From positions 62,001 through 126,000 of the IMG/VR virus record IMGVR_UViG_3300040959_000769: a stretch of DNA of 64,000 bases. The stretch is one strand, 5' to 3'. How positions within the stretch are numbered: position 1 is the stretch's first letter; every line of letters starts with the position of its first letter. Below, in pieces: positions 24,237-42,926 of this stretch. A program made the position numbers and the translations under genes. This stretch comes from a virus. Below the pieces are notes generated by a model. The model was given only the letters and a program-made list of their open reading frames with translations. It was not told the DNA's origin and ran no database searches.

Positions 24237-25018
24237 TCTCCCGAGTTATGCATGTTGGCTCGATACCAGCCGGAACCGTGCCACCGCATATCTGGATCGC
24301 GTTCCATTGATTCGACTACTTCACTAAGTTGTGGTCGTTCTGTTGACTCTGACCAAGTCCAATGATTGGAAAAATGCCCAATCAATGCTGGTCTCGGAAT
24401 GTTCCTACGTGGCGGAGAACCGCGATGAATTACCCTGCTGTTCCAGAACAGTGCATCGCCCTTCTTCGGCATGAAAGTTGTGACCTCATGTTCGTTATTA
24501 TCCATCGCCATTTGACACATGTGGAGCATCCCCAAGCGATTGTCTTTGCCGAACGATATGTCAAGATCCCAGCGATGAGAACCCTTCAGGTATTGGAATG
24601 GACCTGAACCCTCATCAATGTCAGCCAAAGCGATCCACACTCCAAGATATTGATCTGCACCGTTGGGATTGTCGTTGAGTTCATCAACGTGCCATCCGGT
24701 GTTTGACGATCTCCAGTAGGTCAGATCGGAGTGCAAGGCAAGGCACATGTCAAGTTTTGTGAAGGTGTCCGAAATTGACTGATGAAGAAGCAGATCTCGA
24801 ATCTCCGGATACTCCAAGTACATCTGGTCAATGCCGGTGAAGCGCTGATGGTTATCGTCAAAGGTGAAGGTTTTGTGCCAAAAGTTGTTGACGTAGTCAT
24901 CAATGACCGCATGCGGCACCAAACCAGGGCATTCAACTACCCCGTTTTTTTGAAATGTTTGGAGAAGTGTTTCAGTTTTGCCTGTCAAGGTGGACGATTG
25001 CGACAATTTTTTCTCCAT
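24233..25018 (-). CDS. PhyH-family 2OG/Fe(II) dioxygenase (2)
   Basis: 261 residues from ATG at 25018; an upstream ATG at 25054 is possible but overlaps the preceding gene further (47 nt overlap already). Motifs: TGWHVDELND with His110 and Asp112, SGPFQYLKGSHRWD, and VIHRGSPPRRNIPRPALIGH with His198 and Arg209. Similarity to the neighbouring PhyH gene in layout suggests an old duplication. Predicted active; substrate unknown. Confidence 0.85.
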   Translation of the reverse strand: MEKKLSQSSTLTGKTETLLQTFQKNGVVECPGLVPHAVIDDYVNNFWHKTFTFDDNHQRFTGIDQMYLEYPEIRDLLLHQSISDTFTKLDMCLALHSDLTYWRSSNTGWHVDELNDNPNGADQYLGVWIALADIDEGSGPFQYLKGSHRWDLDISFGKDNRLGMLHMCQMAMDNNEHEVTTFMPKKGDALFWNSRVIHRGSPPRRNIPRPALIGHFSNHWTWSESTERPQLSEVVESMERDPDMRWHGSGWYRANMHNSGE

Positions 25019-26537
25019 CGGTGCATGCGAGAGATTCGTACACGAGACTACCATCAATCAACATTGCATCCCCAGAGCAGGGCTTATCTAAAATTGTTGT
25101 GCCTTCTTTTTCGCGTATCACAATGTTTCCATTTTTGTAATCGTCGTTCAAGAAGAAAATCAGTGTCGTCGTTCCCGCCATCTCAACGTTATATGTTTCA
25201 CCTTCTGGCGCACCAGCACCAGATCCTTCAACGAACTTCATGTGCGACAAGGAATTACCCAGGTCGTAAGCAAGATGCCTACATCCAAAGAATTCATCTG
25301 CATGTTTGATTACTTGAGCTATTGAATCGCCGATGTTTTCATACAAAACATTTGAGTAATGCGCTTCGTTTACGAGGTGTAGATGTGTTGACTCGGGAGG
25401 TGAGTCCGGACGCAGATTTTGCCATTCTGCTGATTTTAGGTTTGGGTAAATCTCTGAAGAGTCAAAGCATTCCTCAATGATGAGTACGCCTTCAACTTCA
25501 GGTGTCTTTAAACGCATTGTTTTGTCTTTCTTCACAAGAGATGAATCAACAAGTCGTCTTTCCATCGGATCCGCCTGTGTGCCAACAGCGAAACACCAGT
25601 TTCCACGGAAGCGTCGTTGCCCCTCCTGCATTCCACCCCTGACTCCGTGAGCCATTCGGAACAGGTCAGGCAACGCAAAATCACCTTCATCCCATTTATG
25701 CCACATCTGGATGTCGTTGTTGTAAGTAATTTCTTCAGTGATCTTCACCATCAGGCGATCGAAAAATTCAATTTCTTCTTTTGTGGGTTGCCTGCCGTCA
25801 AAGAGAACTAGATGATCTTGGATGCCCCAAGGCGCACTACATGGGCAAACGCGCAGCGTGTCTCTGCCTGATGCGGGGTGAGGGTCTACGGCTTGCCTGG
25901 AGTAAGAATTGATGTAAGAGTCGCCATCAATCATGGTGACTTTGTCGCGTTTTGCCTGCACAAAAAGATCTGCCATGGACAGGTTTTCGTCATAGGGGGC
26001 TTCATAAATTGCCTCTATGAATTTTCGACTCAGTTTGTAGGGGTCGCCTTGTTGCCAGTTGGGAACGTGAATGATCCTGGACTTTTTTAGGAATTCTTTT
26101 TCCGGCTCAGCAAGATCGTCGTACATCTTGCACATATCAACGAGCCCGGTTTTCCCGAATTCGCTACTGCACGCAAAAAGCTCCATGTTCCACCCGGCGG
26201 CATACTGTGGCCACCGCATAGCAACGCCTTCTACATGCCATTGGATTAGATCTTTTTCAGGTGAGTTGACGCCATCCTCTTCGTCCTGCCTGATCGCCTT
26301 ATCGTGATCCTGCATGTATGGCCAACTAAGAGTGTCTTCGCGAGGTCCGTTGTCATCAGTTGCGAAAGCAGTGAAGTTCAACTCGGGGCCAAGCGCTCTA
26401 AAGATTTTCACTACTTCAGCGTCAGAGAAGTACGCTTTTTTGAAAACGATCATTCCATGCTGCTTGTAAGCAGCGGCGTACAAAGATGGGTTTTCAACTA
26501 CTTGCTCAACTGTGTGTTGATCAAATTCAACAATCAT
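24972..26537 (-). CDS. TauD-like dioxygenase fused to a degenerate P4H-like domain
   Basis: 521 residues, ATG at 26537. Residues ~20-315 follow TauD/TfdA: HGMIVFKKAYFSDAEV, IQWHVEGV with His101 and Glu103 as the HxE pair, EGDFALPDLFRMAHGVRGG with distal His297, and arginines at 309/311. Residues ~345-520 resemble the prolyl-4-hydroxylase fold: TTTLIFFLNDDYKNGNIVIR, then a CSGDAMLIDGSLVYESLACT segment. There the HxD pair is not seen and the distal His is replaced by Tyr-Glu, so the second domain is probably catalytically dead. A substrate-binding role is the likeliest. It is coupled to the gene upstream (26534). Confidence 0.82.
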   Translation of the reverse strand: MIVEFDQHTVEQVVENPSLYAAAYKQHGMIVFKKAYFSDAEVVKIFRALGPELNFTAFATDDNGPREDTLSWPYMQDHDKAIRQDEEDGVNSPEKDLIQWHVEGVAMRWPQYAAGWNMELFACSSEFGKTGLVDMCKMYDDLAEPEKEFLKKSRIIHVPNWQQGDPYKLSRKFIEAIYEAPYDENLSMADLFVQAKRDKVTMIDGDSYINSYSRQAVDPHPASGRDTLRVCPCSAPWGIQDHLVLFDGRQPTKEEIEFFDRLMVKITEEITYNNDIQMWHKWDEGDFALPDLFRMAHGVRGGMQEGQRRFRGNWCFAVGTQADPMERRLVDSSLVKKDKTMRLKTPEVEGVLIIEECFDSSEIYPNLKSAEWQNLRPDSPPESTHLHLVNEAHYSNVLYENIGDSIAQVIKHADEFFGCRHLAYDLGNSLSHMKFVEGSGAGAPEGETYNVEMAGTTTLIFFLNDDYKNGNIVIREKEGTTILDKPCSGDAMLIDGSLVYESLACTDGEKIVAIVHLDRQN

Positions 26538-27202
26538 TTTTCGTCGTCGTATTCCTCAGCCAAGAAGTACTCAATCGCTGCTCGAATACGTTTCAACCCT
26601 TCTTTTGGACCGTATTCGTCGTAGCCGGTCTCAAAGTTTGCTGGCAGCAGGCACCCGTTAGTGAATCGTGCTCGCCGCTTGCCGTCACGGGAAACAATAA
26701 ACTTCTCAAAGTTGCCCAAAATCAACGAACCTGGATCAATACCAAGCCTCTTATAGATGGGGTGTGGCTCAAATGAGCGGTCGTCGTCTTCTCGGCTGTA
26801 ACGAGATTTAACCAACTCGGTGAACGGTAGACGGACTCGGTAGTTGTAAAAGGCGTAGTTGTAAGCCTCTTCAGCCGTGCTCGTCGAGTTGTTTGCAAAG
26901 TCGCCATACGCGAACTCGCAATAGTCGTTAGTTGGCACGCAAACAATTTGAAAACCCTGATCTTCATAGTCGTATTGCAGAACCTGAAGCATCGGATACT
27001 GCATTGAGTTTCCGCACTCTCCTGTCACGTTGACAATCATGGTGACGTTACCGCGTTGATTAGTGATCAGATCGCCTTCTTCGCTGTCAAAAGGCAAAAG
27101 CGGAATGTCGTAAACGCTTTCCCCGTCAGCAGTTGGGCCAAGATCATGTTCGGAGACGAGTAGATCCATCATTTCTTGTGAAATTGACTCAATTTTCGCC
27201 AT
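26534..27202 (-). CDS. glutathione-peroxidase/thioredoxin-fold protein
   Basis: 222 residues from ATG at 27202 (a TTG 15 codons upstream is less likely). TMIVNVTGECGNSMQYPMLQ corresponds to the peroxidatic-Cys loop of glutathione peroxidases with Cys63, and LGNFEKFIVSRDGKRRARF to the WNFEKFLV-type motif (Asn164 kept, Trp replaced by Gly). The usual Gln is replaced (PTNDY). It may be a peroxide or thiol reductase, or a redox partner protecting the Fe(II) enzymes encoded after it. First gene of the leftward oxygenase operon; overlaps the next by 4 nt. Confidence 0.72.
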   Translation of the reverse strand: MAKIESISQEMMDLLVSEHDLGPTADGESVYDIPLLPFDSEEGDLITNQRGNVTMIVNVTGECGNSMQYPMLQVLQYDYEDQGFQIVCVPTNDYCEFAYGDFANNSTSTAEEAYNYAFYNYRVRLPFTELVKSRYSREDDDRSFEPHPIYKRLGIDPGSLILGNFEKFIVSRDGKRRARFTNGCLLPANFETGYDEYGPKEGLKRIRAAIEYFLAEEYDDEK

Positions 27203-27254
27203 GCAGGGATAATACCATTCCCTTGCTCCTCGGCGATAAAACCCCAAAATATGC

Positions 27255-29330: not shown

Positions 29331-30329
29331 ATGCCCGCAAGATTCGGACCTCCAACTCGAGACAAGTACGCCTATTACAGTCTTGACGAAAACGACTGCA
29401 AAACTGTCAACGAGATTGAGTACACAAATTACAAAGGTGGAGTAATCCACTTCCACAACGTTTTCAACGTTGACCGAGACGTAATTTTGCCATACATTGA
29501 CGAAATGGCATACGTGCCATCATGTGGTCTTGAAATCATCAAAGACGACGAAGGCAACATGCTCCACGGCGAAACTTTTGACGGCAAAATCGTGGACATG
29601 AAAGATCTACTCGCACTACCAATGCGGGTCGGCGGTATGGGGATGCCTGAACCAGTCAACCCAAGCACGCCACACGACGTCAGAAACTTTTTTGAGGGTG
29701 TTGAGGAAAGTTTGTATCACTGCCTAATCAGGTACTGTGATATTTACCCACTTATCGTCAACTCAATTTGGTGGCGAATGAGAGGACACTGTCTCAAGTA
29801 CATGCCAGGAGCGAATCTGGGTCTCCACAACGACAACGACACCAACACCTTCACCATTGATGGGCAGAGGTACTACAGCGAACGAGAGATCGCTATGTAC
29901 CAAGTCGTGAACGGTCTGGCTTATTTCAACGATGACTATGAAGGTGGAGAAATGCACTTCCCCTACTTAGACATCACGGTAAAACCAAAAACCGGAGACA
30001 TCATTCTTTTCCCTGCCAACTATGTTGGAACTCATGGAGTGGCGCAAGTTGGAGAAGGAGCACCTCGATACACCTACCTGACGCAGTTCGGTCATGGCGG
30101 AGAGCACAAATACGAAGTACTGGAGCCTCAGGAAAGCGACATGTGGCTAGCTCCGGTGTATGTGCCTTACCTGTACCAAGATCACGTCAAGTTCTCCCAT
30201 TCGGGCTACTCGCACCTGGACACGTCAAAAGACTCAGCGTTAGGTTTCCACGCCTCAACTATTGAGACGCAGCAACGCTCAAAAGAGGGCGCTCCAGTCG
30301 GAACTAAGATTCCGTACGAAGAGGAGTGA
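29331..30329 (+). CDS. P4H-like 2OG/Fe(II) oxygenase
   Basis: 332 residues, ATG at 29331, 9 nt after the previous stop. Catalytic core: YMPGANLGLHNDND (His166, Asp168), GLAYFNDDYEGGEMHFPYLD, KTGDIILFPANYVGTHGV (His235), and PRYTYLTQFGHGG (Arg246). The order and spacing match prolyl-4-hydroxylase-type double-stranded beta-helix enzymes. The N-terminal 140 residues are a helical lead with VIHFHNVFNVDRDV, shared in style with other members of the island. The only island oxygenase on the plus strand; its 3' end overlaps the convergent P4H-like gene by 26 nt. Confidence 0.87.
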   Translation: MPARFGPPTRDKYAYYSLDENDCKTVNEIEYTNYKGGVIHFHNVFNVDRDVILPYIDEMAYVPSCGLEIIKDDEGNMLHGETFDGKIVDMKDLLALPMRVGGMGMPEPVNPSTPHDVRNFFEGVEESLYHCLIRYCDIYPLIVNSIWWRMRGHCLKYMPGANLGLHNDNDTNTFTIDGQRYYSEREIAMYQVVNGLAYFNDDYEGGEMHFPYLDITVKPKTGDIILFPANYVGTHGVAQVGEGAPRYTYLTQFGHGGEHKYEVLEPQESDMWLAPVYVPYLYQDHVKFSHSGYSHLDTSKDSALGFHASTIETQQRSKEGAPVGTKIPYEEE

Positions 30330-30975
30330 AAGGAATAGTTCCTATCAGAGTTCCATGACCAAAGAACTCCAGATAGGAAATACGTTCCCCTGACGTTACT
30401 GGCACAACTTCGTGAGTGCCTAAGAAACCGGCAGGATAAACAAATGCTGTTCCCGCTTCGGGGGCGAAATGCTTGTCGATGTATTTGAATCCAAGATCGC
30501 CACCGACGCAATCATCTTTCAGAATCAGAGATCCGGTCAGGACGCTGTAGATCGCTTTTTCGCTTTCCGAACCAGCACCAACTAAGTTGTCGTTGTGATA
30601 TCCCATGTATCCACCCGGTTTGTAGGTAGCGACATGAGGCACGGCTCTCCACCAAATGTTTTCTTTTGCGTCAGGGAAGAAATTGAAATATTTGGTGACA
30701 CATTCACCCATTGATTTTTCAAGAAGTTCTGCAAACTTCAGATCGTCGTCAGTGGTGTTCACTTTAAGTTGCAGAAGACGACCTGGGGAAGCATTGACCT
30801 GCTCCTCTGTGAAGATGTAGCCACCCCTATTCATGTACGTGCCATCATCCTGCAAGGTGTAGTCGCTTGGTTCTTGTTCGCGACGGCGTTCAAGCCATCC
30901 TTCAAAAAACGAAGCATCAATGTCTAGGACATTTCGATACTCAACGATCCCAAAGCCGTGATGGATTGCTTCCAT
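30304..30975 (-). CDS. P4H-like 2OG/Fe(II) oxygenase
   Basis: 223 residues, ATG at 30975, overlapping the upstream stop as TAATG. Motifs: YKPGGYMGYHNDN with His127 and Asp129, LTGSLILKDDCVGGDLGF, EAGTAFVYPAGFLGTHEV with His188, and GERISYLEF with Arg198. The WWR preceding the core (NIWWRAVPHVATY) is also present in two other island members. Predicted active. Last gene of the seven-gene leftward operon from 35963. Confidence 0.87.
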   Translation of the reverse strand: MEAIHHGFGIVEYRNVLDIDASFFEGWLERRREQEPSDYTLQDDGTYMNRGGYIFTEEQVNASPGRLLQLKVNTTDDDLKFAELLEKSMGECVTKYFNFFPDAKENIWWRAVPHVATYKPGGYMGYHNDNLVGAGSESEKAIYSVLTGSLILKDDCVGGDLGFKYIDKHFAPEAGTAFVYPAGFLGTHEVVPVTSGERISYLEFFGHGTLIGTIPFTPLRTES

Positions 30976-31556
30976 TACTTCTCGTCAGGGAATTCGGTTC
31001 CACGCTCGCGGTCATTGCGGAGACGCTTCACCTCTTTGGCTGAGGTTTCATGAACCTCGGGTGTCCAGTACCCGTCAGTGAAAAGATCAGCAACCTCCTG
31101 AGCCCTATCTCCTGACAGGTACAGGGTGTGCTCATTTGTGTAGCCTTCACGACCGGGATATGGCCATCCATAAAGTCCGGCTTCAACATAATCAATGCCT
31201 GCTCCGGTGATGATGGATGCAATTTCCTGTTCGGACTCTTCGCCCCAGAGACCGTTGGCGTCAACGTAAAGTCCGTTGTAGCCACGAGATGCAACATAGT
31301 TCGCAATCTCAAGTGGAGCGCCACCAAAAGCAATGCAGAAAATGATGTCGCATTTTGCGAGCATCGCATCAAGGGTCACGAGATCAGTGAGATCAAACTC
31401 TGCTGCACGTTCGTGTGTTGCCTCAGAGCGATCAGCCGATGCCCAGACAACCCTGTGCCCGCTCTTACACAAAGCATAGGCAAGGGTGCCGCCCATCTTT
31501 CCTGGGTGGGCAATTCCAATTGTTTTATCCGACTGGGGGGAGTATTGAGTATCCAT
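30975..31556 (-). CDS. truncated NAD(P)-binding dehydrogenase-like protein
   Basis: 193 residues from ATG at 31556 (a longer frame enters the upstream gene). KTIGIAHPGKMGGTLAYALC is the Rossmann loop of 6-phosphogluconate/3-hydroxyisobutyrate-dehydrogenase relatives; YNGLYVDANGLWGEES and GIDYVEAGLYGWPYP match later strands of the NAD domain. The C-terminal all-helical domain that completes the active site in this family (another ~100 residues) is missing. It may be an NAD(P)-binding partner or a minimal reductase. Embedded between oxygenases with overlaps on both sides. Confidence 0.75.
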   Translation of the reverse strand: MDTQYSPQSDKTIGIAHPGKMGGTLAYALCKSGHRVVWASADRSEATHERAAEFDLTDLVTLDAMLAKCDIIFCIAFGGAPLEIANYVASRGYNGLYVDANGLWGEESEQEIASIITGAGIDYVEAGLYGWPYPGREGYTNEHTLYLSGDRAQEVADLFTDGYWTPEVHETSAKEVKRLRNDRERGTEFPDEK

Positions 31557-32349
31557 CTTCCATGTACACATTCGTTGAGATTCGGGCAAGGGTAGGGTGT
31601 TCTTGTGGGTCAACCACATTTTCGCAAACATCAGGGTTTGGCGTACCTTGACAATACCACCCCAAGTAAGAGTAGCGCCACCCGCCAGTCACGGGCTGCA
31701 CTTCATGCGCTGCAACATAATTAGACGGGAAGAAAAGCATGTCGCCTTTCTTTATGTCTTCGTGTTTGATATCTAGGTATTCGAAGTTATGAGCACCACC
31801 AGTGAAGTTCGTTCCGTCAAGCTCATCCTCCGACTTGACGTTGTCGTTCAGGTAAGCCACAACCGAAACGCTGTTGCGAGTGGCCAACTGATCACGAGGA
31901 TGAGGCTTGCCGTACTCGTAGTCAGTACTCACATCTGCGTGCATTCCTAAAAACCCGCCAACCGGATAAGCAACAATGTGGCTTTTGATCTTCCACCAAA
32001 TGCACTTACCGGCAATTGGGAACATTTCTAGATACGAGAGAAGACACGCATCTCGGCGCTCCTCAATGTAGTCAAGGACATCAATTACTTCAGAGCGGCT
32101 GTCCTGATGAACGAAACTCCCACGCCACGGCATCTCATCCAACGAATCTTTCTTAAAGAAATATCCGCTCCGATTGATGTAGCCGTCCTCACCAGTAATC
32201 GGGTCAACACCTGGCGTGTACATGGTCTCGCGCTCTGCCTGCAAAACGTCCTTGCAGTATTCACGCATCCAATCCCAGTCAAGGTTGAACACGTTCTCAA
32301 AGAGGACGACACCACCACCGAGGTGTGTACCAACAGGATTATCGCTCAT
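31525..32349 (-). CDS. P4H-like 2OG/Fe(II) oxygenase
   Basis: 274 residues from ATG at 32349; GGGGGA lies 8 nt upstream, and another ATG at 32355 is possible. Motifs: AYPVGGFLGMHADVS with His137 and Asp139, VVAYLNDN, KGDMLFFPSNYVAAHEV with His215, and GWRYSYLGW with Arg225. IWWKIKSHIVAY precedes the core as in its neighbours, so these P4H-like genes are probably paralogues. Predicted active; substrate unknown. Confidence 0.86.
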   Translation of the reverse strand: MSDNPVGTHLGGGVVLFENVFNLDWDWMREYCKDVLQAERETMYTPGVDPITGEDGYINRSGYFFKKDSLDEMPWRGSFVHQDSRSEVIDVLDYIEERRDACLLSYLEMFPIAGKCIWWKIKSHIVAYPVGGFLGMHADVSTDYEYGKPHPRDQLATRNSVSVVAYLNDNVKSEDELDGTNFTGGAHNFEYLDIKHEDIKKGDMLFFPSNYVAAHEVQPVTGGWRYSYLGWYCQGTPNPDVCENVVDPQEHPTLARISTNVYMEDGYSILPPVG

Positions 32350-33907
32350 ATTCATGTTCCCCCAGTTCAAGCATGTATCCAACATAGTCGTGGATGCGCT
32401 CAATGATCCGCTTCCGGTCATCGTTATCTCGAAGATGATTGAAACAACCGTAGATGGTGTCAATAGCAAACTGAACCAAGAAATCCTCGGGAGGATCGTG
32501 ACCCCTGAAGCCTTCGTATGTCATGAAAGACAAATTATGGAAGTCCCATGGGCGAAACTGCAAAGGCTGGTGTGGGAACCAATCGGGATAATGCCATGCA
32601 TGTCCGGCGTGCCGCATGTCTGGATGCCAACGCAGATACGCACGAACCTTCTCAATGACTGTCAACGTGTCGTCGTCATTTGGTGCTTGCTTCATGAAGT
32701 CTTGATGCGGAGGGAACCCGCCATGCATGTCCCCGTTGCGAGAAAACAGGAACGACTGACCCTCAAGATCAAACCCTTCCATGTGGGCTTTGCTGTAACG
32801 CATCAAGTTAGCGAAAATTCGATCCTCCGGATCCATCTTCACTGGGTAGACATGGAAGTCCTCGCCAAACGGTTCATTGTCAAAAAACTCTTTCAACTTG
32901 ACGCCACGCTCAGGAATGTTCCCATCCTTGGTGAAGATGAAAAGCGTTACCTTCTGAAATAGACACTCAAGTCCCTCAAGGGCATAGATTCCCTTTGTGA
33001 AGACAAGAGGAATGTGGTCAGGGTTCGGACCTTTTGACTTGTCCTTATCAACGCCAGGGTATGACTGTACGTCACCAAAGTTCTCGTTACCATCAACCTT
33101 GTACTCGGGATCGTAGAAAGGCTTCTCCTTCCCTACCTCTACCCGCTGGAAGACCCTATCCTCTCGCTCCCAGCCATTGTAAAAACCGTGCATTACGGCA
33201 CGATTGTCCCAGATGACTACGTCGCCTTCTTGCCACGTCCACTTGTAACGATTAGCTTCTGTTCGGCAATACTCCTCAACCCAGTCGTAGAGTTCTTCAA
33301 ACCATGGGGTGCTCCCCCCGTCAAGTTGGGTGCCTGGTCCGGTCCAGTAAAGAAGAGTTTCTCCAGTATCCGGATGTGTTCGCAAGGCGGGATGGCTGAC
33401 AACGTCACGTCCTGCGGCTCCAGTCTCCGCCACGAAACGAGCCGTCGGCAGGTGTTCCTTAATGTGCTCAGGACACTCTTCGTACAGATTTACAAGACTC
33501 ACCCAGAATGTGTGACCGAAATCTTTATCAACACGGTAGGTCGTCATATGGATGGAAGTAACCGCAGGAGGAGCTTCCAAGAACGGGTTATCTACATGCC
33601 AGTTCTCTTTCAGAAACTGTTCAGGATCCGTTTTATCTTCAACATTCTTGACCGTTGGGTGATTTACGCCCGCAAGAAGACCACCGTTGAAATCTTCATC
33701 AACTTCGCCTGTGTAGATAGCGTTGACCAGTTTCATGTGCTCCTGGTCGGTTGGGTTCATGCCGATGAAACCAACCATCTTGTTCTTGTTGAAAATCAAC
33801 TTGAAATACTCTGGGTCATCAAGAACTTGCCGGGCAGTGATGCCTCTCATCTTGAAACCGAGGTTGCCTAGTTTCAGTCCTAAGGCGATTCCGCCAAAAC
33901 CTTTCAT
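32339..33907 (-). CDS. TauD/TfdA-like dioxygenase with novel C-terminal half
   Basis: 522 residues, ATG at 33907 within the upstream stop (ATGA). The TauD domain spans ~20-260: LKENWHVDNPF with His104 and Asp106, THPDTGETLLYW, WQEGDVVIWDNRAVMHGF with His240, and arginines 251/255 in REDRVFQR. This is a complete active site. Residues ~265-522 are not assignable: a strand-rich piece (VTLFIFTKDGNIPERGVK) and a His/Trp-rich piece (DMRHAGHAWHYPDWFPHQPL) then a helical end. The fusion is unusual in TauD enzymes. Confidence 0.86.
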   Translation of the reverse strand: MKGFGGIALGLKLGNLGFKMRGITARQVLDDPEYFKLIFNKNKMVGFIGMNPTDQEHMKLVNAIYTGEVDEDFNGGLLAGVNHPTVKNVEDKTDPEQFLKENWHVDNPFLEAPPAVTSIHMTTYRVDKDFGHTFWVSLVNLYEECPEHIKEHLPTARFVAETGAAGRDVVSHPALRTHPDTGETLLYWTGPGTQLDGGSTPWFEELYDWVEEYCRTEANRYKWTWQEGDVVIWDNRAVMHGFYNGWEREDRVFQRVEVGKEKPFYDPEYKVDGNENFGDVQSYPGVDKDKSKGPNPDHIPLVFTKGIYALEGLECLFQKVTLFIFTKDGNIPERGVKLKEFFDNEPFGEDFHVYPVKMDPEDRIFANLMRYSKAHMEGFDLEGQSFLFSRNGDMHGGFPPHQDFMKQAPNDDDTLTVIEKVRAYLRWHPDMRHAGHAWHYPDWFPHQPLQFRPWDFHNLSFMTYEGFRGHDPPEDFLVQFAIDTIYGCFNHLRDNDDRKRIIERIHDYVGYMLELGEHEYER

Positions 33908-34626
33908 GAAGGCTCCTTCAGTTGTGGGTGACCCTCAAATGCGGGGCCAATACGATTACCGTTTTCGTCTAGCCCAGTTCGGATGCCACCCATCCAAGTC
34001 CAAGGCTGTTCTTGCAACTTCTTCATCTTTGCATCACCGTACGACTGTCGAGCAGCAGACAAATCTGGCTTGTCCCAGTAGTTCTCAACTGTGAACTCAA
34101 CGCTTGGCATCAGAGAGTTGTCGTAAAACTGGAAAAACATAAAAGGTGAACCAGCAGGAAAAATAACTGGCTGACCAATTTTTGTGATCTTCCAGTTCAT
34201 GTTGAACTCGTCTGGCCACCAGTCAGATGGAATGTGCGCCGTTAAAGGAACAGCCCCATCAACAAAATAGTTAGGTGACCCGCTTATCCACGTGGACACT
34301 CCTGGAGGCGTTGAGAACGTCCACCCAACAGTGAACGACATAATCCCAACAATGCTGGGCATAACAATGTCACGTTCGTAAGTCTGACCATTTGTCTCAA
34401 ACGTCATCTTCTCGCCGGACAGGACACGAGGAACAGTCAGCCCCCCGTCCCATTGAATAACAACATCTTGTTGGAGAAGAACCTCCCAACCGTTGACGTT
34501 TGCTTCAGTCAGGGGAAGACACTTGTATGCATGCTTCTTGTAGGTGTCATCCATCCAGTCGCGTCGAACTGACGCTTGCTTTATCTCAGGTGGATTTTGA
34601 TGTGTTCTAGTGAGAGTTACATCCAT
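33904..34626 (-). CDS. probable DUF6065-family protein
   Basis: 240 residues from ATG at 34626, chosen because it overlaps the upstream stop as ATGA (a GTG lies one codon earlier). KCLPLTEANVNGWEVLLQQD followed by strand-rich IQWDGGLTVPR and later FPAGSPFMFFQFYDNSL resembles the DUF6065 pattern (recalled, not searched). No oxygenase triad is present. Its location inside the oxygenase operon links it to the same pathway. Function of the family is not known to me. Confidence 0.65.
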   Translation of the reverse strand: MDVTLTRTHQNPPEIKQASVRRDWMDDTYKKHAYKCLPLTEANVNGWEVLLQQDVVIQWDGGLTVPRVLSGEKMTFETNGQTYERDIVMPSIVGIMSFTVGWTFSTPPGVSTWISGSPNYFVDGAVPLTAHIPSDWWPDEFNMNWKITKIGQPVIFPAGSPFMFFQFYDNSLMPSVEFTVENYWDKPDLSAARQSYGDAKMKKLQEQPWTWMGGIRTGLDENGNRIGPAFEGHPQLKEPS

Positions 34627-35327
34627 CACTGAATAGCCATCGTCTGACCGCTGGCAACAGGAATTCCCATTGTCGTATCTTGCTGCGCCGAGTACCCACC
34701 TCCGCCGTGGCTCTGGTGGTTACGGTCGTTGTAGTCATACATGGTGACGGCAGAATACTTGATTCCACTCTTTACAGGCTGAGAAGCATGAGCGTAAATG
34801 AAATCACTTGGATGGACAATGACATCACCTGCTTCGGGGACAAACTGAAGGTTTTTGTACGGCATGATGTACTCGCCGCCTTCGTAGTCGTCATTCAAAT
34901 ACCCAATAGCAGACACGGCGCAAGAATAAGAAAACCCAGAGTCAGGATGAACTGAGAAATGCTGCCCCTCGCCATAGCGAACGAAGTTGGTGGCTTCTTC
35001 ATAGTCAAGTTGCAAGTTGTACATTGACGAGTAGTGCTGCACGCACTGGCGTACACCAGAAATAACTTCCTCGTACACCCGTCCAAGATCTGCGAACTCT
35101 TCAGGAACAGGGATGTCTGCTTGACGCAACTTGAAGTCAACGCAATCTCTGTAATCCTTCATCACCTCGTAGTCTCCAACTGTCGCCTGCTTCCATGAGA
35201 AGTATTCGTGGGTGCTCTCAGCGAGACCGGTTTCAAGTCGAGCGATGAAGTTTGAGTCAGGTGCCCAAACGTCTTTGTACAGCATGATGCCGTCGGTCGG
35301 GTTGCCCAAGTATCCGCCAATTCTCAT
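34626..35327 (-). CDS. P4H-like 2OG/Fe(II) oxygenase
   Basis: 233 residues, ATG at 35327. RYGEGQHFSVHPDSG gives His127 and Asp129, IGYLNDDYEGGEYIMPYKNL and EAGDVIVHPSDFIYAHASQP give the sheets and His180, and Lys190 (SGIKYSAVTMYDY) takes the place usually held by Arg. A Lys is used by true prolyl hydroxylases for 2-oxoglutarate, so activity is plausible. 3 nt separate it from the upstream gene. Confidence 0.86.
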   Translation of the reverse strand: MRIGGYLGNPTDGIMLYKDVWAPDSNFIARLETGLAESTHEYFSWKQATVGDYEVMKDYRDCVDFKLRQADIPVPEEFADLGRVYEEVISGVRQCVQHYSSMYNLQLDYEEATNFVRYGEGQHFSVHPDSGFSYSCAVSAIGYLNDDYEGGEYIMPYKNLQFVPEAGDVIVHPSDFIYAHASQPVKSGIKYSAVTMYDYNDRNHQSHGGGGYSAQQDTTMGIPVASGQTMAIQ

Positions 35328-35330
35328 TAT

Positions 35331-35963
35331 TTACCTCAGTTCAGTGATTGTGTAGAAAGAAGGGGTAGTCCATCTTTCTCCACGGGTAATTTGTTTTACA
35401 CCATGAAGATAGTGGACATCACCTGGATGTGCTACCGCTAAGCCTGGTTTTATCGGAATTTCAATATCGAACTCAGGGTAATAAAACTCGCCACCATCAA
35501 AATCTTCGTTCCAGTAAATGATTGAGTTCAGGTCATACAGAGGGAAAGGATTTGGCTTTCCGTCATTCAACTGTTTATCCGCGTGTGGTTGCTGCTCATT
35601 GCCTGGAAGCCATCTGATAAGTACTGGCGGGCGCTTGTATAGAGCAACGTTGAATTTGTCCTCCAACACTTTTTGCATCTTGTCAATATATTTATCAATC
35701 AGATTAAATATATCTGGGGAGATGCGTTTGAGGATTTCGCCACTACACATTCGATCCCACCAATAGGAGGCGTCGTAAATACACGTGCCATCTTCATCAA
35801 ATTCGTCACCCATAGGATTTTCCCACTCTTCAATAGTCGGGAAAAACTTTTGCAGGGTTTTCAGATCATCTAGATCTACGAAGTTTTCAATGACTGTGAT
35901 GTTCTCTGCTGTTGTTCCGAAGTGACCTGGTTCAACTAGCGATTTTTCTTCAACTTGTTCCAT
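35331..35963 (-). CDS. P4H-like 2OG/Fe(II) oxygenase, first gene of the leftward island operon
   Basis: 210 residues, ATG at 35963. Motifs: RWLPGNEQQPHADKQ with His127 and Asp129, IIYWNEDFDGGEFYYPEF, GLAVAHPGDVHYLHGVKQI with His187, and GERWTTPSFYTI with Arg197. It lies 84 nt downstream of the XFPP-repeat gene on the same strand, separated by a perfect 12-bp hairpin. Of all island oxygenases it is the closest to a candidate proline-rich substrate. Predicted active. Confidence 0.87.
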   Translation of the reverse strand: MEQVEEKSLVEPGHFGTTAENITVIENFVDLDDLKTLQKFFPTIEEWENPMGDEFDEDGTCIYDASYWWDRMCSGEILKRISPDIFNLIDKYIDKMQKVLEDKFNVALYKRPPVLIRWLPGNEQQPHADKQLNDGKPNPFPLYDLNSIIYWNEDFDGGEFYYPEFDIEIPIKPGLAVAHPGDVHYLHGVKQITRGERWTTPSFYTITELR

Positions 35964-35985
35964 CAGGTAAGCGAACTTACCATAA

Positions 35986-36030
35986 ACATAGATCCCTCGT
36001 CCACCACGTTGGCAGTCAAGGGATCTATGT
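35986..36030. terminator. perfect 12-bp inverted repeat between XFPP gene and oxygenase operon
   Basis: ACATAGATCCCT (35986-35997) and AGGGATCTATGT (36019-36030) are exact complements around a 21-nt loop. On the minus strand only a short TTT follows the right arm, so termination may be partial, letting some transcription from the fibre genes continue into the oxygenase operon. Confidence 0.5.
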
Positions 36031-36047
36031 CACTCCTCTTGTTTTTC

Positions 36048-36635
36048 CTACTTAAAGCTCGGCGGGAAGAAAGGCGGGAAGTGTGGTGGGAAGTGAGGCG
36101 GGAACCACGGTGGGAAGTGTGGTGGGAAGAACGGTGGGAAATGTGGTGGGAAGTGTGGAGGGAAGAACGGCGGGAAATGTGGCGGGAAGTGAGGTGGGAA
36201 GTGTGGAGGGAAGTGAGGTGGGAAAAACGGTGGGAAGTGCGGAGGGAAGTGAGGAGGGAAAAATGGTGGAAAATGCGGAGGGAAATGGGGAGGGAAAAAC
36301 GGCGGGAAGTGGGGTGGAAAGTGCGGAGGGAAGAATGGCGGAAAGTGTGGCGGAAAGTGAGGCGGGAAAAACGGTCCGATTGCGCGAACAGAAATAGTTG
36401 TTCCCAAAGGAATTTCAGTGAAAGTGGTTGTGAGGTTGTATTCCTGACCGTCAACAATGATGTCATGCGCTTTACCGACATCACCTAAAACACTCGTGTT
36501 TAGCGTATCGACAGCTTCAGAAACGGCGGAAAACCCGAGATTCTGCAACGACACCACGAAATTGCCAGCGTCTGTGAGATCGGTATACGTGAACGTACCT
36601 AAAGGTAGTCCGCTTCCGCCTTTGTTACCTGCCAT
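36048..36635 (-). CDS. XFPP-repeat protein, probable virion component
   Basis: 195 residues, ATG at 36635, 6 nt after the giant fibre gene. Residues 1-88 are an ordinary folded-looking domain (TFTYTDLTDAGNFVVSLQNL, later EYNLTTTFTEIPLGTTISV). Residues 89-192 are 26 uninterrupted XFPP tetrapeptides: 17 HFPP, 8 FFPP and one WFPP, mostly in an FFPP-HFPP-HFPP triad, and the end is SFK. No Cys, no charged residue except the final Lys occurs in the repeat. The repeat should form a polyproline-like, aromatic and metal-binding (His) surface. 52 prolines in Pro-Pro pairs would stall ribosomes without EF-P. It is an obvious candidate substrate of the P4H-like enzymes downstream. Confidence 0.85.
   Translation of the reverse strand: MAGNKGGSGLPLGTFTYTDLTDAGNFVVSLQNLGFSAVSEAVDTLNTSVLGDVGKAHDIIVDGQEYNLTTTFTEIPLGTTISVRAIGPFFPPHFPPHFPPFFPPHFPPHFPPFFPPHFPPHFPPFFPPHFPPHFPPFFPPHFPPHFPPHFPPHFPPFFPPHFPPHFPPFFPPHFPPWFPPHFPPHFPPFFPPSFK
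36057..36370 (-). repeat. 12-bp tandem repeat tract encoding XFPP
   Basis: About 310 nt of imperfect tandem repeats with 12-nt periodicity (plus strand GGNGGGAARTGN-like, minus strand TTYCCNCCNCAY-like). Synonymous third-position differences are frequent between units, so the peptide is conserved more than the DNA, which points to selection for the protein repeat rather than recent slippage. Confidence 0.8.
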
Positions 36636-36641
36636 CAGTCA

Positions 36642-39600
36642 TCACGCCTTTGCATCACCAGTTACGAGCCATGTGTCAGTGCCTCGCTTATGCAACGTTA
36701 TCATAGACCATTGTTCGCGGGTTTTAAGACCAACCGCAGCGTTAATTGTTACCCCTGAGAGTGCGTTAACTGTTGCGGTGCCTGTGCCTGTCTGCACAAT
36801 ATTGATAACTGTTCCGATAGGGAATGCGACACTGGCGTTTGTTGGAACATTAATGGTTCCCGTCGATGAAAATTCCAAGGTGTGACCTTCGTGGGCGGCA
36901 TTTAGAGTCATGTTTGAACTGTAAGTGTCATAATCGTGGAGAACACTTGTACCAGCAGGCAATGTAACCGTGCCGGTAAATGTCGGCGAAGCCAACGGAG
37001 CTTTCAACGCCAACGAGTTCGTGACCGTCGTCGAGAAGTTAGCGTCATCACCCAGAGCCGCAGCCAACTCATTCAACGTATCCAAAGTTGCCGGAGCAGA
37101 ATCAACCAAAGCGGACAATTCCTGCTGAACAAACGCAGTCGTCGCCAACTGTGTGGTGTTCGTTGTTGTAGCCGCCGTAGGTGCGGTAGGTGTGCCAGTC
37201 AAAGCAGGGCTAGCCAACGGGTCATAGTTAACCCAGTTCGCTCCGTCATACCTGATTGCTTCACCGCTGGAAAGAGAAGTAAATGAAACGTCGCCAATAT
37301 CTTCAAGAGCGGAAATAATCGGAACGTTCGCGTTCACCCAGTTAGTTCCGTTGTACTTCAAGAACTCGCCATCAGCCTCAGATGTCAGCGTTACATTGGT
37401 GATGTTTGCCAGAGTGTGCGCCGTGTTGACGTAGTTCGTTCCGTTGTAGAGAAGAATGTCGCCGGACGTTTCACTTGATGTTGAAACACCACCAGAGTTC
37501 TGGATTGTAAGCGGATAGGGAACCCAATTAGTTCCATCAAAGTAGGCAACGTCACCCTCTGAAGGAGCGAGAGTTGTCATATCAACATCGCTCAATCCAC
37601 CAATACTGTGATTAGACACGTCCGAAACCGTGCCTGTCACATCACCGGTTACATCACCGGTCACATTGCCAGTCAAAGATGCCGTGATGGTTCCCGCAGA
37701 GAAGTTGCCCGTTCCATCACGAGCAACAATCGTCCCTGCGGTATTCAGGTTCGTGGCATTAGAAGTGACCGTGACCGCAGCGCCCTCACCTGTTCCAACG
37801 ACAGTCAGACCAGTTCCAGAAACACCGACAGATGCGACATAGTCGCCCGTGGTATGCGTTCCCAGATCAACACTGTCGTTAGCCATTGCCGTCGTCAGAG
37901 TGATGTTCCCGGAACCATCAAACGAAACACCAGCAGCAGTCACATCGCCACTCAAAGCGATGGTGCGGGCATTTTGCAGAGTCGTAGCCGTTGTTGCATT
38001 TCCTGACAAAGCAGCAGTGACCGTCACGAACGTTGGTGAATCCGTCGTGGCAAGACCCTGAATAAGATCAGAGGTTTCAACGCTGGTGACACGACCGTAC
38101 GAATCAGTCGTAACACTTGACACGAATGTTGAGGTAGCGGAACCGGATGTGGAACCAACTGAAACAGTAGCCAAGTCAATATCGTCGGCATTGACGACAA
38201 TTCGAGAAACATCGGCTGTTCCAACATTCAGTGTGTTGCCTGTCTGGGCAAGACCCGTACCGGCAGTGAATGCTTGGGTTCCAGTGAACTGGGTGAACGA
38301 AAGTGCATCCGACCCAATTGAATGCGGCGACGATGTTGACGTAACAACGAAGCCCTGTCGGACATTCGTGCTACCGGCAAGAACGAAAACGGCTTCACCA
38401 GGGTTAACGTCGGCGTCGCTACCGTCAAAATCATCTGCCCTTGTAAGAATCCAGTACGCAGTGCCTGATGCCCCTTGATTCGTTACGACATAGATGCCGT
38501 TATGAGAACTTGTTGCTTGATCTTTAACAAGAACACGGTCCCCAGTGTTTGCGTTAGCTCCGTCAATGACCAGACGGACCTGGCTTGTTGCGGTAAGCGT
38601 CGCCCCCACACCACTTGATCCGTTGTCGTAAGATGGCGTGTCGGGAAGGGTTGTTGCAGTAGCCAAACGAACCGCTTCATGCCAGTCAATGCCAGCAGCA
38701 ATGTTGTCCACGTAAGATTTAGTTACCGCATGACCTGCTTGAGTTGGTGCCGTGCCAAGGCTGACCGTGTTGAACGTAACGTCATCTGACGTTCCCACCG
38801 CCTGACCAATAGCAACGGATGGGGTATTGCCTTCGCCAGTTCCGCCAGTAACTGTGACACCTGTACCCCCAGAAACACTGACGGTGTAATTACCTGTCGT
38901 GTCGGTTCCAAGAGCCACACTGTCGGCTTGAACTGTTGCGCTGATGTTGATATCGCCAGTTCCGTCAAATGAGGCAGAACCAGCAACGTCGCCAGAAATC
39001 TGAATGGTGCGAGCAGTCGCAAGAGCAGTAGCGGTGTCAGCGTTCCCAGTGACATTGCCGGTTAGGTTTCCTGTGACGTTACCGGTAAGAGCAGCCGTGA
39101 CGGTGTTGAAAGTGACGTCATCTGTGGTGCCAACAGCCTGCCCGATTGCGATAGTGGCAGTTTGACCTTCTCCCGTAGGATTGGTGATTGTTACACCGGT
39201 GCTTTCAGCCAACTCGGCAACATAGTTACCTGTCGTGTCAGTTCCAAGTGCGACCGAATCTGCTTGGATAGTCGTTGAAATTGAGACATCACCAGAACCG
39301 TTGAAACTGACAGAACCAGCCACGTCGCCAGTAAGCGAAATTGTCCGAGGAGTCTGCAATGTTGAAGCAGTAGTAGCATTACCACTTAAAGCTCCGTAGA
39401 AGGTGCTTGCTTGAACATCTGCTAATTCAAACGATGCGTCGCTAGTGTTAACGTTCCCTGAGAGTTCTGGGTCGTAAGCATTGAAGAACTTCCATCGAGC
39501 GTCATCGGTGTCGCGGAAAAGACCAGTGTGGTTGTAGCCGCTGTCGTTGTAGTTGCCAGCGAAACCAATATCAACGTTTACCGGTGAAGCGGTACCCGAC

Positions 39601-42600
39601 CATGTGTCCCCACTTGTGTGACCAGTCGCGGCAATAAATGTGATTGAAATGCCGTTATCAAGCGTTACACCGTCAGTGTCAATATCAACGCCAGTGGCTT
39701 CTGTTGTTGAGAAGTTGTCCTTTGACCATTCAAAGGTGTCCACCCCGCCGGTTCCAGCACCAACCCCGTCAATCCTGACGTAATAGGTTGTGCTACCAGT
39801 TCCAGAGTAGTGACCGGTCAACGTTCCGTCATTAAGACCCGTACCCGAGAATGACGTTGTGGCGATGGTGTCGCCGCCATTCAGATAGATCCACGAGTCA
39901 TCAACACTCAGGTTGTTGACAGAAACTTCTGACTGTGTTCCAAGGATTGTCAGGTTGCCAGCAACAGTAAGATCTCCGCTGATACGCGCATCGTTACGAA
40001 CACGAATATCATCAAATACCTCTGAAACAACTTTGACCCGGAAACAACCTGGATCCTGAGCGAGAAGCACCTCAGCAATCCCAATTGCATAGTTCGGGTA
40101 GGTCGGAACAGCCGTGGTTAAAGCACCTGGTGTTGTTGCTGATAGGTGAAGCCTGTCCCCGACGGAGAAACCGCTGAGGTCAACACCGAGCAAAACACCA
40201 GATTCAATAATGAATCCGTAAGCGCCATCAGCGATAGTGCTTTTGGCGACACCACCAACGTTGACTTTATCTCCATCGCTAGCATCAGCCAGAGCGATGG
40301 TTGGGATAGCCGCCGTTTCACCAGTGAAATAGACAGCCGAACCTGCCGGAATACTTACACCTGAATCGTTATGAACGTACAACGCCTGCTCTTGACCGAG
40401 AGCAATATCAACACCAGTCGTGCTCGTAAATGCACGTAGCGCTTTGTTAGCCGAGTCGTACCAGATTCGACCTTCTTCATATGTTGGCGTTGAATCAGGA
40501 GTGTAGGTTGAAGCCGCAACGTCGTAATACGACGCATAAACCCGAACGGCTTCAATATCGTTCGGCGTGTCGTTTGCGCGTCCTGCACCGAGGATAAGAA
40601 TTTCGCCAGTAGATGCATCCTTACGGATGACTCGACCGATGGCTTGAACTTTTGACCCGATAGCCGTCGGACGGGTACGTGTCAGTCCGCCACCTTCATC
40701 AACATACAGAACATCGTTGACGTCGTACGACGACGTATTCATGTGTTTGATAACGCCGAGGATGACGGCGTGACCTTCTGCGTTTGCTGTCAGTTCAGCG
40801 GTCGTGATTCCCAGTGCGGGCATTGTTGAAGATGTTGCCGCATCCGAAGGCGACACTTCTGTTTTGCCACTCGCACCAACCGAACCTGTCGCATAAACAG
40901 GCGTACCTTTAGCAATGGTGGAACCCGATGTGTTCTTAACATGAACATATACAGGTCCAGCAAGTTCACCGTGAATATGGCCAGCGTCAAGAAGACCGTT
41001 TACCGTCACATCTTCAAAAGTTACGCTTGCCGTACTGTCAAGAGTGATGGTTGGAGTTGCGCCTTCTCCAGAGTTATTGGTGAGCGTGACCCCGTTGCCT
41101 GCAACCAGGTTCTGAACATAGTCGCCGGTCGTATCAGTACCAAGAGTGACAGAATCAGGCTGAATTGTCGCCGCAATATTTATATTTGCTGTGCCATCAA
41201 ATGATGCAGAACCAACCACATCACCAGAAACTTGGATCGTTCGAGCCGTTTCCAACGCTGTTGCCGTATCAGCATTACCAACCAAATCGCCTGTAACAGT
41301 GTTGAAAGTTACGTCATCAGTTGTTCCAACCGACTGGCCGATTTCAATAGTGGGAGTTGCTTTTTCTCCTGAATTATTGCTGAGCGTGATACCAGTGCCA
41401 GCAACGAGATTCTGCACAAACGACCCAACAGTGTGATCACCAAGAGTGATCGCAGCATTGATCCACTCCGCTCCGTTGTAGCGAAGAAAGTCGTTAGATG
41501 CTGGAGTTGCGACCGTGGTATCTGTCAGACCAGCGACAGTTGGTGCAATGTTGCGCCACTCTCCCGCCGTTGAATCCCACGCAATAATGTCATCGTTAGA
41601 AACAGAAACAATGTTTACGCCAGGAATGTCATCAATTTCTGTCGGCAGCGGGTAGTACGTGACCCCGTCGTTGGTGAACTCCCAAACATCTTGCGTTTCA
41701 TCCCAACGAACAGAAACGTTGTTAGAGGTTCCACGTGTGACCTCAATGCCAGCATTCAGCGATGGGGCGCCAGTAACACCGCTGTTAAGGTTGATGATGT
41801 TGTCTTCAACGTACAGGTTTGCGGTGTTCAGAGTTGTTGTTGTTCCGTTGACCGTGAGGTTACCGCCGACAGTTAGATCAGCAGTTGTCGCAACAGAGTT
41901 GAAAGTCACGTTTGACGTTGTTGAAACGTCTTGACCAATAGCGATAGAAGGCGTGTTTCCTTCTCCGGAACCACCAGTAACAGTTACACCTGTTCCGCCG
42001 CTAACACCTTCGGTGTAATCCCCAGTTGTGTCCGTCCCAAGAGCAACACTGTCAGGTTGCACCGTGGTCGTGATCGTGACATCGGCAGATCCATCAAAAG
42101 AAACCGAACCAGCAACGTCTCCGTCAACAGTGAAAACTCGAGGTGTCTGCAAGGCGGAAGCCGTTCCAGCGTTGCCAGACACATCACCCGTAACATTGCC
42201 TGTCAGAGAAGCAGTGACAGAATTGAAAGTGACATCATCGCCAGTCCCAACCGACTGACCAATAGCAATCGTCGGGGTTGAACCCTCACCAGAATTGTCT
42301 GCCAGGTTTACACCGGTACCAGCAACCAAATTCTGGACATAGTCACCAGTTGTGTCAGCACCCAAAGCCACCGAGTCAGGCTGAACTGTCGCCGCGATAT
42401 TGACATCCGTGGACCCGTCAAAACTTACAGATCCCGCCACATCTCCAGAGAGTTGAATGATTCGAGCGGTTTCAAGGATGCTTGCCGAATCAGCATTACC
42501 GACAATGTCTGCCGTCACAGTGTTGAACGTGACATCTGACGTGGTTTCAACTTCCTGACCGATTGAAACTGACGCTGCTGCGCCTTCACCGGTTCCACCC

Positions 42601-42926
42601 AAAATGGTGACTCCGGTACCTGCGGTAACGCTCTCAACGTAGTCACCAACCGAGTCGGTGCCAAGATTTACAGCGTCATTGATCCACGCAACACCATTCC
42701 AACGCAAGAAATCGCCATCAGCAGCAGATGTGATGGTTACATCAGAAATTTCGTCAAGTGTTGCCGTTGTGTAGTAATAGTCAAGCGAAGTCCATGCAGT
42801 AAGACCATCACCAAGTTTGAGTTTCCCAGTGTCCGTCTCGTACCCAAGTTCGCCTTGAGCAAGAGTTGGATCTTCACTTGTCCAATTCGCCGCTGTATCT
42901 CGGCGTAGCTGAATTCTTGTTGCCAT
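36642..42926 (-). CDS. giant repetitive tail fibre (2094 aa)
   Basis: ATG at 42926 overlapping the upstream stop as TAATG. The N-terminal IQLRRDTAANWTSEDPTLAQ followed by GELGYETDTGKLKLGDGLTA resembles the fibre N-terminal module of Mtd-like proteins. Then about six copies of a ~85-residue unit with (E/Q)(T/N)(A/P)R.(I/F)..(S/T)GDV.GS.SF(D/N)G, DSV.LG(A/T)(D)TTG(D/N)Y and GTGV lie between residues ~100 and ~1750. A middle section (VHVKNTSGSTIAKGTPVYAT and on) is different. The C-terminus has an ASPALTGTPTAPTAATTTNT module and a shufflon-like end. Beta-solenoid receptor-binding fibre. Confidence 0.88.
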   Translation of the reverse strand: MATRIQLRRDTAANWTSEDPTLAQGELGYETDTGKLKLGDGLTAWTSLDYYYTTATLDEISDVTITSAADGDFLRWNGVAWINDAVNLGTDSVGDYVESVTAGTGVTILGGTGEGAAASVSIGQEVETTSDVTFNTVTADIVGNADSASILETARIIQLSGDVAGSVSFDGSTDVNIAATVQPDSVALGADTTGDYVQNLVAGTGVNLADNSGEGSTPTIAIGQSVGTGDDVTFNSVTASLTGNVTGDVSGNAGTASALQTPRVFTVDGDVAGSVSFDGSADVTITTTVQPDSVALGTDTTGDYTEGVSGGTGVTVTGGSGEGNTPSIAIGQDVSTTSNVTFNSVATTADLTVGGNLTVNGTTTTLNTANLYVEDNIINLNSGVTGAPSLNAGIEVTRGTSNNVSVRWDETQDVWEFTNDGVTYYPLPTEIDDIPGVNIVSVSNDDIIAWDSTAGEWRNIAPTVAGLTDTTVATPASNDFLRYNGAEWINAAITLGDHTVGSFVQNLVAGTGITLSNNSGEKATPTIEIGQSVGTTDDVTFNTVTGDLVGNADTATALETARTIQVSGDVVGSASFDGTANINIAATIQPDSVTLGTDTTGDYVQNLVAGNGVTLTNNSGEGATPTITLDSTASVTFEDVTVNGLLDAGHIHGELAGPVYVHVKNTSGSTIAKGTPVYATGSVGASGKTEVSPSDAATSSTMPALGITTAELTANAEGHAVILGVIKHMNTSSYDVNDVLYVDEGGGLTRTRPTAIGSKVQAIGRVIRKDASTGEILILGAGRANDTPNDIEAVRVYASYYDVAASTYTPDSTPTYEEGRIWYDSANKALRAFTSTTGVDIALGQEQALYVHNDSGVSIPAGSAVYFTGETAAIPTIALADASDGDKVNVGGVAKSTIADGAYGFIIESGVLLGVDLSGFSVGDRLHLSATTPGALTTAVPTYPNYAIGIAEVLLAQDPGCFRVKVVSEVFDDIRVRNDARISGDLTVAGNLTILGTQSEVSVNNLSVDDSWIYLNGGDTIATTSFSGTGLNDGTLTGHYSGTGSTTYYVRIDGVGAGTGGVDTFEWSKDNFSTTEATGVDIDTDGVTLDNGISITFIAATGHTSGDTWSGTASPVNVDIGFAGNYNDSGYNHTGLFRDTDDARWKFFNAYDPELSGNVNTSDASFELADVQASTFYGALSGNATTASTLQTPRTISLTGDVAGSVSFNGSGDVSISTTIQADSVALGTDTTGNYVAELAESTGVTITNPTGEGQTATIAIGQAVGTTDDVTFNTVTAALTGNVTGNLTGNVTGNADTATALATARTIQISGDVAGSASFDGTGDINISATVQADSVALGTDTTGNYTVSVSGGTGVTVTGGTGEGNTPSVAIGQAVGTSDDVTFNTVSLGTAPTQAGHAVTKSYVDNIAAGIDWHEAVRLATATTLPDTPSYDNGSSGVGATLTATSQVRLVIDGANANTGDRVLVKDQATSSHNGIYVVTNQGASGTAYWILTRADDFDGSDADVNPGEAVFVLAGSTNVRQGFVVTSTSSPHSIGSDALSFTQFTGTQAFTAGTGLAQTGNTLNVGTADVSRIVVNADDIDLATVSVGSTSGSATSTFVSSVTTDSYGRVTSVETSDLIQGLATTDSPTFVTVTAALSGNATTATTLQNARTIALSGDVTAAGVSFDGSGNITLTTAMANDSVDLGTHTTGDYVASVGVSGTGLTVVGTGEGAAVTVTSNATNLNTAGTIVARDGTGNFSAGTITASLTGNVTGDVTGDVTGTVSDVSNHSIGGLSDVDMTTLAPSEGDVAYFDGTNWVPYPLTIQNSGGVSTSSETSGDILLYNGTNYVNTAHTLANITNVTLTSEADGEFLKYNGTNWVNANVPIISALEDIGDVSFTSLSSGEAIRYDGANWVNYDPLASPALTGTPTAPTAATTTNTTQLATTAFVQQELSALVDSAPATLDTLNELAAALGDDANFSTTVTNSLALKAPLASPTFTGTVTLPAGTSVLHDYDTYSSNMTLNAAHEGHTLEFSSTGTINVPTNASVAFPIGTVINIVQTGTGTATVNALSGVTINAAVGLKTREQWSMITLHKRGTDTWLVTGDAKA

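Follow-up and report, generated by a model that had tools for sequence, protein, structure and literature searches.

Analysis of a 64,000-nucleotide stretch of viral DNA (the window; bases 62001-126000 of a 137,166-base IMG/VR virus record) revealed a set of genes that probably forms a phage protein-modification cassette. Two oxygenases, OG_A and OG_B, would hydroxylate the XFPP tail of a neighbouring protein, most likely at its paired prolines, with a DUF6065 protein as conserved partner. The cassette shows a recurrent gene architecture, a tail conserved at the coding level, intact 2OG catalytic residues, two-way co-occurrence of tail and enzymes and a fixed gene order. From these features we infer enzymatic action on the tail, proline as the target, virion display and a purpose for it.

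The XFPP protein would be a small fibre-associated protein in which a long, extended aromatic-Phe-Pro-Pro tail follows a domain head, PASTA-like in the window. OG_A and OG_B would be two P4H-like 2OG-Fe(II) oxygenases dedicated to that tail, the DUF6065 protein might act as scaffold, binder or further modifier, and the modified tail may be presented at the tail fibre or close to it. Stiff chains of the polyproline-II type are favoured by hydroxyproline, so the purpose could plausibly, if speculatively, be a filament that is rigid or adhesive; display might provide a stiffer tail, adhesion or surface shielding. For the bolder proposal that a portable XFPP tail, hyper-hydroxylated by OG_A and OG_B and joined by a partner of predicted dUTPase fold, gives phage tails a new kind of modified filament for adhesion or shielding, we consider the chances to be even.

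The XFPP gene and its surroundings

The record belongs to a tailed phage, as it contains terminase and portal genes. The minus strand carries, in order, a tail-fibre gene, the XFPP gene, OG_A, OG_B, the DUF6065 gene, a TauD enzyme, OG_C, a Rossmann protein and OG_D, and OG_E is convergent to this cluster (Table 1). The fibre protein matches the tail-fibre / minor tail families PHROG 356, 7389 and 23820, with E-values as low as 1e-52, and its gene lies 6 nt from the XFPP gene. A preliminary description of this DNA had reported a 195-residue protein ending in 26 XFPP units and, 84 nt downstream on the same strand, the first oxygenase gene; both were confirmed. The Rossmann protein also gave a weak prephenate dehydrogenase-like match. 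Across the whole record PF13640 had nine matches, seven of them above cut-off. Weak homologues of the glutathione-peroxidase-like protein occur directly 3' of XFPP in L017-L019 and L021-L023.

Table 1. Features of the window discussed in the text, with positions and strands.
Feature	Position (strand)	Length	Remarks
Tail-fibre / minor tail protein	36642..42926 (-)	2094 aa	Directly upstream of XFPP gene
XFPP gene	36048-36635 (-)	195 aa	
XFPP protein head, N-terminal	36373..36635 (-)	about 88 aa	Possibly PASTA-like
XFPP tail	36048..36372 (-)	26 units	X = H, F, W; end SFK
XFPP/OG_A spacer	35964..36047 (-)	84 nt	Hairpin with 15-bp stem
OG_A (core)	35331..35963 (-)	210 aa	P4H-like 2OG-Fe(II) oxygenase
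OG_B (core)	34626..35327 (-)	233 aa	P4H-like 2OG-Fe(II) oxygenase
DUF6065 protein (core)	33904..34629 (-)	241 aa	Predicted dUTPase-like fold
TauD-family oxygenase (accessory)	32339..33907 (-)	522 aa	PF02668 E = 5e-30; retained in near relatives
OG_C, 2OG oxygenase (accessory)	31525..32469 (-)		PF13640 E = 2e-11
Rossmann / NAD-binding protein (accessory)	30975..31631 (-)		Weak PF02826 and related matches
OG_D, 2OG oxygenase (accessory)	30304..30975 (-)		PF13640 E = 1e-6
OG_E, 2OG oxygenase (accessory)	29331..30329 (+)		PF13640 E = 2e-7; convergent
Glutathione-peroxidase-like / thioredoxin-fold protein	26534-27247 (-)		
Further 2OG-type genes	23484-26537		Two PhyH, one TauD
ADP-ribosylglycohydrolase domain and dual-specificity phosphatase domain in one protein	62721-63923 (-)		

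The 26 units stand uninterrupted at the C-terminal end and hold 53 of the 55 prolines of the protein. Codon analysis revealed 23 different 12-mers among the 26 units; at the third codon position both proline codons are near-saturated (mean pairwise differences of 0.69 and 0.73), and the F, P and P codons show zero amino-acid changes across the 26 units. Ten relatives have the same codon pattern. As the unit DNAs are this distinct, the silent sites near-saturated and F, P and P fixed, the array is not due to chance, and codon analysis ruled out a simple DNA repeat or out-of-frame artefact. Near relatives keep a tail of 12 to 34 units and all else drifts. The ending FPP-x-FK is common to many XFPP proteins, and one contig has two separate XFPP genes (L092 and L137).

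Across 200 distinct arrays (2369 units), X was phenylalanine in 1437 units, tyrosine in 510, histidine in 380 and tryptophan in 36, that is, one of these four in 2363 of 2369 units. Leucine, which the search pattern permitted at X, is absent from all 200 distinct arrays. This near-constant choice of an aromatic X among F, Y, H and W would suit a variant of the main reading in which the tail is modified on its aromatics (beta-hydroxy-His/Phe/Tyr or ring hydroxylation) and not on proline, and 2OG enzymes hydroxylating His or Asn beta-carbons exist. We regard this variant as rather unlikely, as F, P and P are invariant whereas X varies, and the profile neighbours of the enzymes are prolyl hydroxylases.

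The window tail has no lysine or arginine ahead of its final residue and would therefore escape ordinary trypsin-based proteomics; this blind spot may be a reason why the XFPP tail has gone unseen. Dozens of PP motifs would make translation dependent on the host EF-P.

Heads, spacer and reading frames

The window head had no Pfam match, PF03793 included. Its AF2 model (pLDDT about 70-88) had PknB PASTA as top Foldseek match at E = 1.5, and hhalign of heads only, window against PASTA-type heads, aligned them end to end at E = 0.0024, with five shuffled controls at E 0.07-0.7. These predictions are at most suggestive of a PASTA-like head. In L017-L023 another head, of PASTA type, stands on the same XFPP tail. 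Among the 120 XFPP loci listed, heads are PASTA-like, Fn3 or other and often fused to larger proteins, with matches to PF03793 (PASTA) and PF00041 (Fn3) in several loci. The occurrence of one tail on such different heads suggests that tail and enzymes travel together.

Near-identical repeated cores, a possible leader in the form of the head and several oxygenases within a single operon are also what a multi-core RiPP-like precursor would present; the oxygenases would then tailor the excised repeats to yield small products. Such a precursor is highly improbable here, since no protease or cyclase gene is found among the core genes, the XFPP gene comes after tail-fibre or virion genes, and the Fn3 and PASTA domains used as heads have structural or adhesive roles.

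The preliminary description had also mentioned a hairpin that part of the transcription may read through. The hairpin between the XFPP and OG_A genes is strong (-36.9 kcal/mol, z = -6.9); it is followed by UUUAUGG, without a U-run, and is not an intrinsic terminator of the standard type. It was not seen as such in relatives with a longer gap. In six near relatives this gap is about 300 nt and contains an ORF of roughly 93 codons, absent in the window, which looks like a small membrane protein and in 6/6 immediately follows the XFPP stop codon in the same frame (L004:1245-1575, L005:8541-8857, L007:1885-2181, L008:8481-8784, L011:544-840, L014:4350-4659).

In one clade of PASTA-type XFPP genes (30 distinct loci, including L032, L072, L080, L090, L092, L097, L103, L112, L113, L116, L122, L150 and L151), the frame that holds the start (M..RKAPKPTVAAR) is not the one that encodes the PASTA/XFPP part; the two differ by +1. 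The offset is centred on a conserved GCN-CGG-A site, with CGG conserved at about 97% per base, and a stop codon ends the first frame 3-24 codons further on (3-9 in most). To judge from the sequences, this looks like a conserved programmed +1 frameshift. The window XFPP gene needs no frameshift.

Core proteins and their co-occurrence with the XFPP tail

Both core enzymes carry the HxD...H facial triad and distal Arg/Lys of the 2OG-Fe(II) superfamily: H127xD129, H187 and R197 of OG_A are invariant in 18 homologues, and H127xD129, H180 and K190 of OG_B in 21 homologues. OG_B is above the PF13640 cut-off and OG_A below it. The top PDB profile matches of OG_A were prolyl 3-hydroxylase 1 and bacterial P4H; OG_B matched bacterial P4H and lysyl hydroxylase LH3. 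By sequence both are closest to known prolyl hydroxylases; these matches are weak and partial in coverage, and PKHD enzymes follow closely. The likeness to P4H is at profile level (E about 1e-6 to 1e-8) and fixes neither substrate nor residue. One contig of 154 kb (L145, G047) has sixteen OG_A-profile matches, a large 2OG enzyme expansion.

The window DUF6065 protein matches PF19541 at E = 2e-43. Its AF2 model (pLDDT 92) matched dUTPases in Foldseek (E about 1e-4, prob 1.00), and a dUTPase-like fold is predicted. DUF6065 was above cut-off in 23 of 399 Pseudomonadota genomes, and the short flanks of ten such loci contained no OG_A or OG_B match, which suggests that DUF6065 is older or wider than the XFPP system. 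Both DUF6065 (at least nearly 600 confirmed stretches in IMG/VR) and OG_A (at least 600 stretches in the collection search) are large families.

An enzyme-blind DNA pattern of four XFPP units, scanned over 2.9 million viral contigs, gave at least 120 loci; scans of collections keep the best matches only, and IMG/VR contigs are mostly fragments. Among the 120 matches listed, OG_A or OG_B homologues were inside the locus in 88, and a search of the whole records of the remaining 32 contigs found OG_A-profile matches in 21, bringing XFPP and oxygenases together on 109 of 120. The 11 contigs with no match to the OG_A profile were all below 40 kb. When two or more of OG_A, OG_B and DUF6065 were required, in loci with at least 5 kb downstream, 42 of 54 loci among those listed qualified; L040 and L067, outside this strict rule, have the core elsewhere on the contig. 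XFPP also occurs without the core: about ten of the 120 listed contigs, mostly fragments, have generic 2OG enzymes only, or none; examples with generic 2OG genes only are the contigs of L042, L048, L049, L053 and L063, of 25-88 kb. The arrays of core-less contigs, XFPP or FFPP, are often inside larger proteins. Wherever the contig extends far enough, the closest relatives of the window XFPP protein all lie between a fibre gene and the oxygenase cluster. These locus counts are not independent, because the loci share ancestry, the OG_A sequences forming two large clusters at 60% linkage.

As background, 80 random viral loci contained 0/80 core genes, 0/80 XFPP and one weak 2OG match (1/80), and none of 24 whole random viral records had an OG_A-profile match; the same profile does find matches in the whole records of XFPP contigs. 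Searches in the reverse direction, among best matches, found XFPP in 23/23 loci of at least 16 kb and 37/42 of at least 12 kb when starting from DUF6065, and in 23/23 and 38/39, respectively, when starting from OG_A, the two sets overlapping in contigs and being related by descent. The core triad was present in all of these loci. Tail and core thus co-occur in both directions beyond background.

A search starting from a deeply diverged DUF6065 clade, whose OG_A is about 40% identical, found OG_A in 44 and OG_B in 45 of 45 long loci (at least 12 kb). Three XFPP units were present in 22 of these 45 loci and two units in 29; nearly all other loci inspected have variant tails such as FFAPP, FFGPP and FFPFFPP. 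In L443, L446, L447, L454, L456, L466, L467 and L482, FF-(A/G/S)-PP stands in place of XFPP and the OG_A, OG_B and DUF6065 core is kept.

Comparison of phages with a related fibre C-terminus (loci of at least 15 kb) served as matched control and revealed tail and core in 24, tail only in 0, core only in 1 and neither in 10 (Fisher p = 6e-8, a value that overstates independence, the 33 fibre termini falling into 25 clusters at 90%). The lone core-only locus, L510, has a short F/P tail. Several of the phages with neither keep weakly matching generic 2OG genes, which ties the tail to this particular core rather than to 2OG enzymes as a whole. Gene order is fixed as well: OG_B is on the XFPP strand in 234/234 and DUF6065 in 220/220, both are downstream of XFPP in 98% (median 1.4 and 2.3 kb), and OG_A is at most 5 kb from XFPP in 95%, on the same strand in 137 and the opposite strand in 103. 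All ten further loci tested have a tail-fibre or virion gene directly upstream of XFPP.

Two other readings bear on this linkage. The core oxygenases might act elsewhere, on fibre glycans, a small molecule or a host component, and adjoin XFPP through block exchange of host-recognition modules. We consider this unlikely: the window cluster is rich in accessory oxygenases (two PhyH, two TauD and PF13640 types) and tail-less related phages retain generic 2OG genes, as it would have them, but it is the tail, and not the head domain, that constantly accompanies the core, tail and core are lost together among related-fibre phages, the nearest solved relatives are protein prolyl or lysyl hydroxylases, and no GT4 gene was found (PF00534, whole record). 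Alternatively, the tail would be a rigid structural spacer with no need of modification, linked to the core by ancestral hitch-hiking. All loci could indeed stem from few founding cassettes, given the two large clusters; this reading is nevertheless very unlikely in view of co-retention at about 40% identity between enzyme clades, the head swaps and the co-loss in matched phages.

Hydroxylation of the XFPP tail by OG_A and OG_B remains the preferred reading. The genome context in both directions, together with the matched control, strongly supports the pairing of XFPP protein and oxygenases as substrate and enzymes put forward in the preliminary description, and the survey of other phages that it had called for found them together. 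Regular occurrence of XFPP without such oxygenases, which would have spoken against that pairing, was not observed, despite the exceptions. Its further suggestion of glycosylation by a GT4-like enzyme is unsupported, PF00534 having no match in the whole 137-kb record, and its overall interpretation is partly supported.

Distribution and comparison with known systems

Among 50,697 phage records there was no XFPP relative and no DUF6065, and OG_A matches were weak. A scan of 11.3 million cellular genome contigs gave 17 pattern matches, of which only three, L305, L310 and L314, represent true XFPP genes, each on a phage-like contig in a MAG; L305 has the core genes beside XFPP, and L310 has OG_A and OG_B. 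The other cellular matches are LFPP, HFPP and FFPP runs in chance or antisense frames and give no case for a cellular origin. A literature search, with subscription papers mostly outside its scope, found no paper that names DUF6065, describes aromatic-Phe-Pro-Pro repeats or links a phage prolyl hydroxylase with tail fibres. These results point to a system that is widespread in uncultured phages, not known from cultured ones and so far undescribed.

In several loci the XFPP heads resemble phage-tail PASTA and Fn3 proteins in their Pfam matches; unlike those, they bear an XFPP tail and a linked oxygenase core. With trimeric dUTPases the DUF6065 protein shares its predicted fold, at about 10% identity. 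If the proposal is true, this study would give DUF6065 a function and would define a compact enzyme-substrate system testable in E. coli.

The 2OG-Fe(II) oxygenases of cyanophages and other marine phages belong to the same superfamily and match the core enzymes weakly (about 30% identity over part of the protein). Roles in 2OG/nitrogen metabolism or DNA repair have been proposed for them (PMC3037559). They differ from the present system in that neither an XFPP gene nor the DUF6065 core accompanies them in the phage records searched. The present reading, if true, would offer a purpose for a class of phage oxygenases to which metabolic or repair roles have been ascribed until now.

Another close parallel is the hydroxylation of collagen and extensin (C-P4H, P3H1, plant P4H), where 2OG-Fe(II) prolyl hydroxylase-like enzymes likewise meet a long proline-rich repeat. 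If the reading is true, the hydroxylation of collagen by animals and of extensin by plants would have a phage counterpart, in which dedicated enzymes act on the phage's own virion proteins. The phage repeat is aromatic-F-P-P, whereas those of collagen and extensin are Gly-X-Y or Ser-Pro4, and it is a phage that encodes the XFPP enzymes, which come with a DUF6065 protein as partner and in linkage with a tail fibre.
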